From Treponema sp. (GTDB taxonomy: Bacteria; Spirochaetota; Spirochaetia; Treponematales; Breznakiellaceae), in assembly GCA_031276965.1 (NCBI GenBank), contig JAISMC010000080.1:1-35344 (forward strand): DNA of 35,344 nt, written 5' to 3'. This document shows, in pieces, positions 1,638-29,178 of the stretch. Every line of letters starts with the position of its first letter. The stretch's first letter is position 1. The notes beneath the pieces were generated by a model. It saw only the letters and a list, made by a program, of their open reading frames with translations. It ran no database searches and was not told the origin of the DNA. A program made the position numbers and the translations under genes.

Positions 1638-1668
1638 CTGTTCCAAAGCCCGATTGGTCTTGGAACAG
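1638..1668 (+). repeat. Intergenic hairpin, member of a dispersed family
   Basis: Arms CTGTTCCAA and TTGGAACAG pair perfectly, and the stem continues inward with one mismatch (AGCCC/GGTCT) around a GATT loop. It lies between the ATPase stop and the sulfhydrylase RBS and has no following T-run, so it is unlikely to be a simple terminator. It could be an mRNA stabiliser or processing site. The same core recurs at 20413, 20489 and, more diverged, 29095. Confidence 0.7.
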
Positions 1669-1694: not shown

Positions 1695-2993
1695 ATGGCT
1701 TATCATTTTGACACATTGAAAATTCGGGCGGGTTACAATCCCGCGGAACACCGGCAGTCGGTACAGGTGCCCATCTATCAAACCACCGCCTACGAATTCC
1801 GGGACACCAAAAATGCGGACAGTCTCTTTGCCTTTACCGAGGCGGGCTTCCTCTACACCAGGGTGAACAACCCCACCGTGGACGTGCTGGAACAGCGGGT
1901 GGCGGCGCTGGACGGCGGGAAGGCGGCGCTGGGCCTGGGGTCGGGCATGGCGGCCATATCCTACACCCTGCTCAACCTTGCGGAAGGGGGCGGGCGCATT
2001 CTCACCACCCCGTACCTCTACGGCGGCAGCTTCGACAGTTTTGGCCGGCTGTACCCCAGTTTCAATATTCACCTTGACTTTTCTCCCAACTTTAACGATC
2101 CGGCAAAACTGGAGACAAATATTAAAGAAGACACCAGAGCGATCTTTGTGGAATCCGTCAGCAACCCCACCGGTGTCGTGGCGGACCTGGAGGTCCTGGC
2201 CGCCCTGGCGCACAAACACGGTATTCCCCTGGTGGTGGACAATACCTTTGGTACTCCCTATCTTCTCAATCCCATTAATTACGGGGCGGATCTGGTGCTG
2301 TATTCGGCCACCAAAGCCCTGAACGGCCACGGGAACCTTATCGCCGGGCTTGTGGTGGAGGCGGGGGATTTTCCCTGGGACAACGGCAAATTCCCCCAAC
2401 TAATACAGCCCGAATATGTACTCCGCGACAGGGAAACGGACCGTAAACGGGGTTTTCTGGAAACCTTTCCCGATGCGCCCTTCGTTACCCGCATCCGCCT
2501 GGTGTACCTCAACTACTTCGGCGCGGCCCTGGGGCCCTTCGACGCCTACCTTGCCCTCATCGGCCTTGAGACCCTTTCGGAGCGGGTGGCAAAACAAGTT
2601 GCCAACGCCCAAAAAATTGCGGAGTATCTGGAAAAACATCCCCGGGTGGAATGGGTAAAGTATCCGGGGCTAAGATCCGATCCCAACTATACCCTGGCGA
2701 AGAAGTATTTCCCCAAAGGTCCCGGTTCGGTGCTGTCCTTCGGTTTCAAGGGAACTCAGGAACAGGGGGACAAATTCCTCAATGCCATTGAACTGTTGAG
2801 TTACCATGTAAATGTGGGAGACGCCAGAACCCTTATCGTCAATTCCCCCCGGACCACTCACGGGGAGCTTACCCCGGAGGAACAGCAGTTTGCGGATATT
2901 CCCCAAAACCTTATCCGTATCTCCGCAGGGCTGGAGGACGCCGGGGACATCATCGCCGATCTTGATCAGGCCTTTGTGAAGGCCTTTAATTAA
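1695..2993 (+). CDS. metY: O-acetylhomoserine sulfhydrylase (methionine synthesis, PLP enzyme)
   Basis: This cytoplasmic PLP enzyme of the Cys/Met metabolism (gamma-family) transfers sulfide or methanethiol onto O-acetylhomoserine, giving homocysteine or methionine. The 432-residue length is typical. The N-terminus TLKIRAGYNP and the phosphate-binding LGSGMAAI are family hallmarks, and the PLP lysine lies in YSATKALNGHG. A strong AAGGAGG site sits 5 bases before the ATG. It follows the ABC ATPase on the same strand and ends at a perfect intrinsic terminator. The nitrogenase-like genes then start from their own promoter. With a methanethiol-releasing reductase next door, direct methylthiolation to methionine would be the natural job here; that link is inference. 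Cystathionine gamma-synthase-like activity is less likely on length and motif. Confidence 0.92.
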   Translation: MAYHFDTLKIRAGYNPAEHRQSVQVPIYQTTAYEFRDTKNADSLFAFTEAGFLYTRVNNPTVDVLEQRVAALDGGKAALGLGSGMAAISYTLLNLAEGGGRILTTPYLYGGSFDSFGRLYPSFNIHLDFSPNFNDPAKLETNIKEDTRAIFVESVSNPTGVVADLEVLAALAHKHGIPLVVDNTFGTPYLLNPINYGADLVLYSATKALNGHGNLIAGLVVEAGDFPWDNGKFPQLIQPEYVLRDRETDRKRGFLETFPDAPFVTRIRLVYLNYFGAALGPFDAYLALIGLETLSERVAKQVANAQKIAEYLEKHPRVEWVKYPGLRSDPNYTLAKKYFPKGPGSVLSFGFKGTQEQGDKFLNAIELLSYHVNVGDARTLIVNSPRTTHGELTPEEQQFADIPQNLIRISAGLEDAGDIIADLDQAFVKAFN

Positions 2994-2997
2994 TGGG

Positions 2998-3032
2998 AAC
3001 CTCTAAAAACTTCAGTTTTTAGAGGTTTTCTT
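2998..3032 (+). terminator. Rho-independent terminator after metY
   Basis: Perfect 13-bp arms AACCTCTAAAAAC and GTTTTTAGAGGTT enclose a TTCA loop and run into TTTTCTT. The terminator lies 5 bases after the metY stop. It separates the transport/metY transcript from the nitrogenase-like genes. Confidence 0.9.
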
Positions 3033-3052
3033 ACCCCTGGGAGAAAATCGTA

Positions 3053-3080
3053 TTACCATAATGTCTGTTCACATTATAAA
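3053..3080 (+). promoter_or_regulatory. Candidate promoter of the nitrogenase-like pair
   Basis: TTACCA, a 16-bp spacer and TATAAA form a moderate sigma70-like promoter just after the terminator. The expected start point falls near 3087, about 20 bases before the ATG. The -10 lies inside the palindrome listed next, so the two would compete for binding. Confidence 0.5.
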
Positions 3081-3086
3081 CAGACA
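3062..3086. promoter_or_regulatory. Palindromic operator-like site over the promoter -10
   Basis: TGTCTGTT and AACAGACA form perfect 8-bp arms around 9 bases (CACATTATA). The site covers the candidate -10 of the NifD-like gene, the layout expected for a repressor operator. The bound regulator is not identifiable; a sulfur- or thiol-responsive factor is a guess from context. Confidence 0.5.
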
Positions 3087-3105
3087 CTAATTAAACGGAG
3101 AAACC

Positions 3106-4596
3106 ATGAGTGAAATTAACCTGAGGGCCACGCAGGCTCCGGTACGGGAAACGCGGCTCGGGTCCATCACCGGCTATGTAGGAAGCGCCGGGGATCTGGT
3201 AAGCTGCGCCCGGCGGGGGACCCTGCGGGACAGGAGCCGCAGCTTCAGCCAGTGTATGGGCTGTTCCACCTCCAATGCGGCCTGTACCGTCGTTCTGATC
3301 CGTGATGCGGCGGTGATAAGCCACGGACCGGTGGGCTGCGCCGGATGCCTCCACGAATTCGCCTTTACCTATCAGGTAAATGGCATACACCGGAATGTGG
3401 ACAATCCGGAACAGCGCCGTATCTTTACCACTAATGTAAACGAAAGGGATACGGTCTACGGGGCGGGGCAGAAACTTGCCGGAACGATCCGTGATGTGTA
3501 CCGGCGGGTAAAACCGGCGGCCATATTTATTATCACCACCTGCGCCTCCGGCATCATCGGGGACGATGTAGAAGGTATTGCCGGGGAGGCGGAAGAAGAA
3601 ATCGGCATCCCCGTGGGGGCCATATTCTGCGAGGGCTTCCGCTCGAAGATATGGACCAGCGGCTTTGATTCGGGCTACCACGGCATTGCCCGGAAGCTGA
3701 TCAAAAAACCGGTAAAAAAACAGGAGGACCTGGTTAACATCGTCAACTTCTGGGGTACCGATGTATTCAGCCGCTGGTTCAAACGGCTGGGCCTCCGGGT
3801 CAATTACCTTACCCCCTACGCTACGGTGGCCCAAATCGCTTCGTCCTCCGAAGCGGCCCTTACCATCCAGATCTGCGCGACCCTGGGGTCCTACCTGGGG
3901 GCCGCCCTGGAACAGGAATTCGGCGTACCGGAAATAAAGGTGTCCGCCCCCTACGGCATCGCCCAGACCGAACGCTGGTTCCGGGAATTGGGCCGCCTGA
4001 CGGGCCGGGAAGAGGCGGCGGAGCTTTTTCTCCGTGAAGAGCGGGAACGGTGGCTCCCGGACATAGAAACACTGCGGGAAAAACTTTCCGGCAGGACCGC
4101 CTATGTTACCGCCGGGGCCTCCCACGGCCATTCCCTTTTGGGCCTGCTGCAGGAACTGGGGATGAAGCCCCTGGGGGCCGCCATCTTCCACCACGATCCG
4201 GTCTACGACAACGGCGCCGAATCCGCCGACACCCTGCAGAATGTGGTGAAGGATTACGCCGACGAGATCAGGGGCTACAATGTCTGCAACAAGCAGGAAT
4301 TTGAACTGGCCAACATCCTTAACAGGGTCCGGCCCGACATACTCCTGGCCCGGCATGGGGGCATGACCCTCTGGGGCGCCAAATACGGCATACCGTCGCT
4401 TTTAATCGGGGACGAACATTTCGGCATGGGCTACGAGGGAATCGCCGGTTACGGAAAACGTATCCTTGAAACAATCGAAAACGACGAATTTGTGAAGAAT
4501 CTTGCAAAGCACGCCATCAATCCTTATACCGAATGGTGGCTGGCGCAGGATCCCTTCGCTTTCCTGGAAGACGGCGCGCATGTCAGAGCATATTGA
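3106..4596 (+). CDS. Nitrogenase-like component 1 alpha (NifD-like), methylthio-alkane reductase-type candidate
   Basis: This is the D-type catalytic subunit of a nitrogenase-superfamily enzyme, 496 residues. Cysteines for a P-cluster-type centre are present: Cys50/Cys53 (SQCMGC), Cys78 (ISHGPVGC) and Cys146 (TTCASGIIGDD), matching NifD Cys62, Cys88 and Cys154. Cys257 (TIQICATLGSYLG) aligns with NifD cofactor ligand Cys275, and His438 (GDEHFGMGYEGIAGYG) is a candidate for His442. The CEGFR stretch aligns at Cys175, but NifD Gln191 and His195 read Trp183 and Phe187, so dinitrogen fixation is unlikely. These are alignments by eye. A GGAG site precedes the ATG, and the 3' end overlaps the K-like gene by 17 bases. 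Alternatives are another group IV nitrogenase-like enzyme or a NifE-like scaffold. MetY beside it favours a Mar-type C-S reductase. Confidence 0.8.
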   Translation: MSEINLRATQAPVRETRLGSITGYVGSAGDLVSCARRGTLRDRSRSFSQCMGCSTSNAACTVVLIRDAAVISHGPVGCAGCLHEFAFTYQVNGIHRNVDNPEQRRIFTTNVNERDTVYGAGQKLAGTIRDVYRRVKPAAIFIITTCASGIIGDDVEGIAGEAEEEIGIPVGAIFCEGFRSKIWTSGFDSGYHGIARKLIKKPVKKQEDLVNIVNFWGTDVFSRWFKRLGLRVNYLTPYATVAQIASSSEAALTIQICATLGSYLGAALEQEFGVPEIKVSAPYGIAQTERWFRELGRLTGREEAAELFLREERERWLPDIETLREKLSGRTAYVTAGASHGHSLLGLLQELGMKPLGAAIFHHDPVYDNGAESADTLQNVVKDYADEIRGYNVCNKQEFELANILNRVRPDILLARHGGMTLWGAKYGIPSLLIGDEHFGMGYEGIAGYGKRILETIENDEFVKNLAKHAINPYTEWWLAQDPFAFLEDGAHVRAY

Positions 4597-20159: not shown

Positions 20160-20384
20160 TTAGACTCCGACTACGGCGCTGACTTCGGGAATTTCTTTTT
20201 TAAGGAAATTTTCAATCCCCATTTTTAGGGTCATCTGAGCCATGGGGCATCCGCCGCAGGCGCCGGTCAGTTTAAGAGAAACGGTGCCATCGTTGTCTAC
20301 GGAAACAAATTCCACATCCCCGCCGTCGGCCTGGAGGGAGGGACGTACCGTTTCAAGGGCGGTTTTTATTTTTTCTTCAAGCAT
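20160..20384 (-). CDS. NifU-like C-terminal domain protein (Fe-S scaffold)
   Basis: This 74-residue protein consists only of the NFU domain: SLQADGGDVEFVSVDNDGTVSLKLTGACGGCPMAQMTLKMGIE. The CGGC pair binds a [4Fe-4S] cluster that is passed to target enzymes. I use the ATG at 20384, giving MLEEKIKTALETV, because AGGAG lies 8 bases upstream; the track start adds a 41-residue leader from the hairpin region. Stand-alone NFU proteins serve general Fe-S assembly in treponemes. The window contains several Fe-S enzymes that could use it (the nitrogenase-like pair, NfnAB), but nothing ties it to one of them. Confidence 0.88.
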   Translation of the reverse strand: MLEEKIKTALETVRPSLQADGGDVEFVSVDNDGTVSLKLTGACGGCPMAQMTLKMGIENFLKKEIPEVSAVVGV

Positions 20385-20412
20385 TATTATTCTCCTAATT
20401 TTACTAATAGAG

Positions 20413-20442
20413 GCTGTTCCAAAACTGAAGTTTTGGAACAGC
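20413..20442. repeat. Perfect hairpin of the GTTCCAAAAC family
   Basis: GCTGTTCCAAAAC, TGAA, GTTTTGGAACAGC: 13-bp perfect arms. It lies between the cobalamin adenosyltransferase stop and the NifU-like start. The core AAAACTGAAGTTTT is the inverse of the AAAACTTCAGTTTT core in the terminator at 2998. Confidence 0.8.
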
Positions 20443-20458
20443 AACCTTAGATTTAAGG

Positions 20459-20486
20459 GAAAAAGCGGGCATTTGACCGCTTTTTC
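20459..20486. terminator. Bidirectional terminator-like hairpin
   Basis: GAAAAAGCGG, eight bases, CCGCTTTTTC. The GC core flanked by A-run and T-run works on either strand. It probably ends the alanyl-tRNA-editing/adenosyltransferase transcript before the NifU-like gene. Confidence 0.7.
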
Positions 20487-20488
20487 AA

Positions 20489-20527
20489 GAGCTTGTTTCA
20501 AAACCAACCGGGTTTTGGAACAAGCTC
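20489..20527. repeat. Long hairpin of the GTTTTGGAAC family
   Basis: GAGCTTGTTTCAAAACC, AACCG, GGTTTTGGAACAAGCTC: 17-bp arms with one G-T wobble. It is the third stem in a 115-bp stretch and 44 bases from the adenosyltransferase stop. Confidence 0.8.
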
Positions 20528-20570
20528 AATATACATCACTATTCGGCTGATGACAAGCCGCGGAGTAACT

Positions 20571-21083
20571 TTATCCCTCTAAACAGGCAAGCAAAAAGAG
20601 CAGGTCCGAAAGACGGTTCATATAGGGGATGAACTTCGCCGCCGGCGGGAAACGGGCGGCATCCGCGGAGCCGCTTTCCGCCTCCAGCCGGGCCAGGGCA
20701 GCCAAGCGCCGCTCGGCCCGGCGGCAGACGGTCCGGGCTATGTGCAGCCTGGCCGACGGAGAGTTGGCGCCGGGAATAACGAAACCCCTATAGGGAACCC
20801 CCGCTTCAATTTCCCTGACCCAGACGTTCAGGCGCTCCGGGCCGGGCGGGGCGGAACCGGAACCCGCCAAGGCCCCTGCAATCACAAAGAGATCCCGCTG
20901 TACCGCCTCCAGGATATTTCCCGTCCGTCCCTCCGCCGCAGTACAGCGGGCGTCCCCGATAAAGGCGTTCAGTTCGTCCAGGACGCCGAGACATTCTATC
21001 CGGGGATGATCTTTGGAAAGCCGGGAGAAAGCGCCGGTAAGCCCCGTATTTCCGTCATCGCCGGCGCCGGTGGAAATGCTCAT
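20571..21083 (-). CDS. ATP:cob(I)alamin adenosyltransferase, PduO type
   Basis: This cytoplasmic enzyme makes adenosylcobalamin from ATP and cob(I)alamin. Family landmarks are TGAGDDGNTGLTG near the N-terminus (ATP site), LGVLDELNAFIGDARC at about residue 32, the ARLHIARTVCRRAERR helix with catalytic arginines, and the closing YMNRLSDLLFLLACLEG. The 170 residues are slightly shorter than many PduO proteins. The ATG overlaps the AlaX-type stop by 4 bases. A user enzyme for adenosylcobalamin is not visible here. Confidence in the family is high. Confidence 0.9.
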   Translation of the reverse strand: MSISTGAGDDGNTGLTGAFSRLSKDHPRIECLGVLDELNAFIGDARCTAAEGRTGNILEAVQRDLFVIAGALAGSGSAPPGPERLNVWVREIEAGVPYRGFVIPGANSPSARLHIARTVCRRAERRLAALARLEAESGSADAARFPPAAKFIPYMNRLSDLLFLLACLEG

Positions 21084-29094: not shown

Positions 29095-29125
29095 TTGTTC
29101 GAGAACCAGCCGGATTTTCGAACAA
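29095..29125. repeat. Divergent-intergenic hairpin, diverged family member
   Basis: TTGTTCGA and TCGAACAA are perfect 8-bp outer arms, with inner AACC/GGaTT pairing around AGCC. It sits in the gap between the divergent genes starting at 29035 and 29179. The outline matches the CTTGTTTCAAAACC hairpin at 20489 with CG in place of CA. Confidence 0.6.
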
Positions 29126-29178
29126 GTCCATTGAACAAAATACTAGCAAAAACCTGCCGGGAGGCTTACACTCCTTAC

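Follow-up and report, generated by a model that had tools for sequence, protein, structure and literature searches.

Short stems of similar sequence recur between the genes of a 35,344-nucleotide contig of Treponema sp. (JAISMC010000080.1, assembly GCA_031276965.1; the whole stretch is referred to here as the window), raising the question of what kind of unit they represent. The original prediction regarded them as a dispersed family of hairpins whose structure seems selected, with close stems at 1638, 20413 and 20489 and looser relatives at 2998, 11482 and 29095. GTTCCAAAAC is indeed found, with at most one mismatch, at 10 sites of the window where 2.6 would be expected, and none of 100 shuffles reaches 10. 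The window stems are, nonetheless, whole, solo or sister versions of the ends of a larger unit, and we consider it very likely that the hairpins are ends and remnants of a gene-less mobile element (MITE) moved in trans by the DDE transposase of a separate insertion sequence (IS).

The full element occupies positions 20410–20527 of the plus strand (118 bp, 5' GAGGCTGTTCC ... GGAACAAGCTC 3') and is bracketed by the tetranucleotide AATA at 20406–20409 and 20528–20531, recognised as a target-site duplication from the sequence and, for the left copy, also from the duplication statistics given below. Its components follow one another, all on the plus strand, as hairpin A (20413–20442, with a 13 bp stem and a 4-nt loop), the conserved linker CCTTAGATTTAAGG containing the CCTTAGATTTA motif (20445–20458), a middle hairpin GAAAAAGCGG ... 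CCGCTTTTTC (20459–20486) and hairpin B (20489–20527). The left terminal repeat consists of the outer arm of hairpin A plus positions 20410–20412, and the right one, GAGCTTGTTCCAAAAC read inward, is the outer arm of hairpin B, the arms of the element being GAGGCTGTTCCAAAAC and GAGGCTTTCCCAAAAC. Each terminal repeat is thus followed by its own complement, so that each end forms a perfect hairpin, and the fold of 20410–20527 (-65 kcal/mol, z -10.5) comprises hairpin A, a small CCTTA/TAAGG stem, the middle hairpin and hairpin B. The single hairpin as the unit of the original prediction gives way here to a transposable element that comprises three hairpins and is flanked by target duplications. The element scores 134 bits (E 2e-29) with covariance model R1, and a copy on contig C90 of the same genome is 98% identical, including both stems and the material between them. 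In general, units are 117–120 bp long, typically ~119 bp, show no coding capacity and carry terminal inverted repeats of the form GAG[GC]..(GTTCC or TTCCC)AAAAC, the GAG..CCAAAAC repeats being present at both ends as in a MITE. In the window, the element lies between two minus-strand genes, encoding a NifU-like domain protein (20160–20384, PF01106), whose start is 25 bp from the element, and a cobalamin adenosyltransferase (20571–21083, PF01923).

The three close stems do pair as predicted, at 1634–1672, 20413–20442 and 20489–20527, although the latter two are the two ends of one element. The stem at 1634–1672, on the minus strand, is a solo, decayed B-type end (GAGCCTGTTCCAAAGCCCGATTGGTCTTGGAACAGCTTC; covariance model E 6e-4) whose start coincides with the final base of the stop codon upstream. 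Among the proposed looser relatives, that at 2998 belongs to a sister element, truncated here to its first hairpin, GGGAACCTCTAAAAACTTCAGTTTTTAGAGGTT, and part of the middle (2995–3055, plus strand); its arms differ from those of the full element and equal the IS5 terminal repeat GGGAACCTCTAAAAAC, and a complete copy of this sister type elsewhere (L030) has TTAA on both sides. At window positions 1695–4596, the genes for a Cys/Met-metabolism PLP enzyme and a nitrogenase component 1 type oxidoreductase are neighbours, and upstream of them lies one for an ABC transporter ATPase. The hairpin at 29095–29127 (plus strand, GTTGTTCGAGAACCAGCCGGATTTTCGAACAAGTCC) is of another repeated type, with matches in the same genome at L011:11609, L019:2116 and L008:14000 and a weak covariance-model match (E 0.13), while the relationship claimed for 11482 found no support, this being a 9-bp AT hairpin of -4.7 kcal/mol.

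The genome to which the window belongs (2.70 Mb, 189 contigs, 86% complete) was covered through 20 stretches, searches and covariance-model matches. BLAST returned ~30 copies, and the covariance model, built from 55 copies, located 30 places above 115 bits, near full length, and ~60 distinct related places at E <=1.4e-6, some of them matched on both strands owing to the near symmetry of the element. The genome-wide recurrence anticipated for the stems is therefore borne out. Matches were also present in 20 of 59 genomes searched, all in the window's own family. The exact right-arm pattern occurs in at least 109 stretches of public contigs, almost all from termite-gut Treponema or Spirochaetaceae assemblies; a single Flavobacteriaceae match has no hairpin and looks like chance, and the end pattern was absent from the viral contigs searched. 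In the relatives G016, G088 and G165, some contigs begin within a few to ~20 bases of an element (e.g. L059), and the repeat may be what breaks these assemblies.

Conservation of the paired structure is pronounced. Across the 55 copies, 96% of cells are paired, 15 pairs show changes on both sides and double-changed cells number 158 against 44 in shuffles, whereas sliding the partners out of register lowers pairing to 36–62%; in the middle hairpin, five of the nine pairs modelled in the alignment have changed on both sides. Hairpins A and B both show the change from GTTCC to TTCCC in their arms, with arm types agreeing at the two ends in 52 of 64 copies and being opposite in five. Such covariation, together with the very stable folds and the mostly intergenic placement (a simple ORF test places 34 of 43 copies between ORFs; the other nine overlap them, mostly at ORF ends, so that the predicted location of all stems between genes holds only in the main), might suggest selected cis-acting RNA hairpins, acting as terminators or as processing or stability elements. 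This reading is improbable considering that (i) at least 5 T in the 8 bases past the end occur in 3 of 57 copies for B and 8 of 57 for A, not above the background of 7% measured downstream of end B, (ii) copies are found in both gene orders and all orientations, (iii) they show target duplications and, in one case, insertion inside a gene start, (iv) covariation is equally expected if the arms track changing transposase ends, and (v) a scan of the window against Rfam 15 gave no match over the gathering score. The scarcity of T-runs and the failure of termination to explain the stems had been correctly foreseen. As for the claim that conserved arms reflect selected structure, compensatory change is real, but the conservation is at least partly that of transposase-binding ends and not necessarily of an RNA function.

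Mobility of the unit is reflected by its flanks. An exact 4-bp target duplication surrounds 34 of 58 testable full copies, and a parallel count gave 35 of 59 copies identical at 4 bp against 1.5 expected from shuffled partners, with no excess of flank identity at 2, 3 or 5–8 bp among the same 59; counting only copies from the genome of the window, 13 of 20 carry the duplication. One 134-bp copy (L058) lies between ATTA repeats within the first, signal-peptide codons of a gene for a transporter solute-binding protein, in the context ATGAAAAAAAACATTA, element, ATTATTCTTTTTGGG. In a different species of this genus (L317), the orthologous gene is uninterrupted at that place, this single case of an unoccupied site being a comparison of diverged species, at ~77% identity, and not of isogenic strains.

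Opposed palindromes separated by a spacer, intergenic, non-autonomous and present in many copies also define REPINs (PMC3116915), in which a REP-associated tyrosine transposase (RAYT) mobilises, in single-stranded form, REP palindromes paired in inverted order, and one Y1_Tnp protein is encoded in the window's own genome. It is very improbable, however, that the elements studied here are REPINs, since their target duplications have a fixed length of 4 bp, their ends are those of DDE insertion sequences, the 2.4-kb locus of the Y1_Tnp gene contains no element end, and the GTAG or CGTC tag is absent at the hairpin foot in the alignment of 55 copies.

The DDE-type ends were traced through a DDE_Tnp_1 search within the family, which led to the complete genome G029 and two insertion sequences repeated in it. 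The first, of 1246 bp, is an IS5 member according to NCBIfam NF033581, has ends GGGAACCTCTAAAAAC and is flanked by the 4-bp duplications TAAA, ATAT and ATAT; the second, of 1217 bp, has ends GAGCCGATTTCAAAATC and the duplications TCTA and TTAA, and its DUF772 + DDE_Tnp_1 protein stays below the IS1182 and IS5 cut-offs of NCBIfam. Querying 200 genomes with the protein of the 1217-bp IS yielded insertion sequences with ends GAGCCTTTCCCAAAAC / GAGGCTTTCCCAAAAC (L269), ..CTGTTCCAAAAC (L267) and GAGCCTGTTGCAAAAC (L268), and copies cut by contig ends displayed GAGCCTGTTCCAAAAC (six genomes) or GAGCCTTTCCCAAAAC (four further genomes). Both arm types of the element are, thus, found in relatives as ends of ~1.2-kb DDE insertion sequences. 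An intact matching transposase was not found in the window's own genome, where the partner may have been lost or left unassembled given the fragmentation and completeness stated above. Other candidate partners were rejected: PF13751 transposases are absent from this genome and their loci in relatives have no matching ends, and the two PF01609 remnants it contains have ends that do not match.

With arms identical to the terminal repeats that 1.2-kb DDE insertion sequences carry in relatives, the element is most likely mobilised in trans by their transposase, and this is the best mechanism. The transposase would be encoded elsewhere, by a 1.2-kb IS of the IS5/IS1182 group whose terminal repeats match those of the element exactly, would bind the outer arms of the element, excise or copy it, and join it to staggered 4-bp targets. 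Solo ends such as that at 1634 would be decay products, and effects on neighbouring transcripts, if any, would be secondary. A two-ended element of this kind does not predict the duplication observed right after CCTTAGATTTA or C in three of ~12 solo A units. In these three (L087, L111 and L134), solo hairpin A and CCTTAGATTT(A/C) are followed by a copy of the preceding four bases (TTAT, CATT and AACT), which is suggestive of hairpin A moving alone, as it may do as an independent 47-bp unit. Some A ends directly precede a gene, for which reason attC-like recombination sites of mobile gene cassettes were also considered. Solo A ends adjoining genes would fit, as would a 1036-bp unit of Treponema sp. 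Pcl387_bin26 (L105:1783-2818), in which ends B and A, with TTAT on both outer sides, enclose a gene for a beta-lactamase-superfamily (metallo-)hydrolase. Duplications of 4 bp are not, however, a product of integrase recombination, copies occur one at a time at scattered sites, and this is the only gene-carrying case among the 109 listed loci and the own-genome stretches, leaving cassettes with hardly any probability; the L105 unit is possibly a gene-carrying version of the element.

Taken as a MITE, the element shares with RUP, Correia/NEMIS and ERIC a size of ~100–200 bp, the lack of genes, terminal inverted repeats, target duplications, AT-rich intergenic sites and stable folds and, with RUP in particular, ends in common with an insertion sequence (PMC2229807, PMC10969869). 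In most known MITEs, on the contrary, the paired ends give one long stem, while here there is a hairpin per end and a third between them. The CIR elements of Caulobacter come near in that a linker joins two long arms, but they carry a GANTC motif and have no IS partner identified in PMC2229807; the present element has a middle hairpin, the CCTTAGATTTA motif and a matching DDE insertion sequence. IS5/IS1182-group insertion sequences have identical terminal repeats and, in G029, duplications of 4 bp, differing in their ~1.2 kb length and in encoding a transposase. Their ends do not themselves form hairpins, and the doubled arms of the element consequently need an explanation of their own. The kind is therefore ordinary, that of a MITE, while the design is unusual, in that each hairpin end combines a repeat with its complement and one core occurs with the ends of several IS groups. 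Treponema is not mentioned in either MITE review (PMC2229807, PMC10969869), and no description of this repeat was found in the papers searched, a set that excludes subscription papers and ISfinder.

The covariance model further matches units of 139–145 bp in another family of the order, f3 (complete genomes G359, G325, G494, G037 and G385). Family f5 (G042) also yields matches, as do two members of the window's family, G028 and the complete genome G062. All these units have the same layout as the window element, with the A loop and the B loop AACC conserved and CCTTAGATTTA or CCTTGATTTT kept in most of those from f1 and f3; in the two f5 units inspected, the loops are shared less clearly than in f3. 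The arms of these wider-pattern units are those of other insertion sequences. Units with ends GGGAACCTCTAAAAAC / GGGCATCTCTAAAAAC show the 4-bp duplications AAAG, TATA, TGAA and AGCC, whereas those with ends GGGGCTGTCCAAAAAC / GGGGCTGTCTCAAAAG show none, several lying between A-rich and T-rich flanks, as at L347, L348, L352 and L366 (G359, G494, G325). In G385 and G494, IS5-type remnants adjoin GGGTACCTCTAAAAAC and GGGCACCTCTAAAAAC.

These features lead us to lean, if only slightly, towards the view that an old core, consisting of the hairpin A loop, CCTTAGATTTA, the middle hairpin and the hairpin B loop AACC, has been re-armed with the repeats of at least three IS groups (GAGGC..CCAAAAC, GGGAACCTCTAAAAAC and GGGGCTGTCTCAAAAG) across two or more families of Treponematales, and that target duplications are present or absent according to the end type. 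In hairpin form, an altered arm could be copied onto the opposite one, which would allow the parasite to follow its transposase or switch to another. MITEs usually count as dead ends, produced by deletion from one insertion sequence; if the re-arming holds, a core would outlast its transposase partner by changing ends and would persist between bacterial families. With many genomes, matched ends and clean duplications available, end exchange is directly testable. In practical terms, the element accounts for a common intergenic repeat of termite-gut Treponema genomes. For the GGGGCTGTCTCAAAAG-ended elements of the other family, and not for the window's type, the missing duplications and the A-runs or T-runs at several edges resemble the stem-loop-replacing transposition of IS1272 (PMC5678879), as if terminator stems had been replaced.

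Other repeated hairpins populate the window's own genome, one (GGTTTTTATGGCTTTTTCAACGAAAAAGCCATAAAAACC) at L016:1642, L020:7113, L023:2119 and L007:17927 and another (GGATTTTTTGCGGCATCAAGCGCAAAAAATCC and variants) at L006:11859, L009:10536, L023:4764 and L020:9416, and GAAGCTATAGCTTTTAACCCG-like units form a tandem array at L011:1694-2003.
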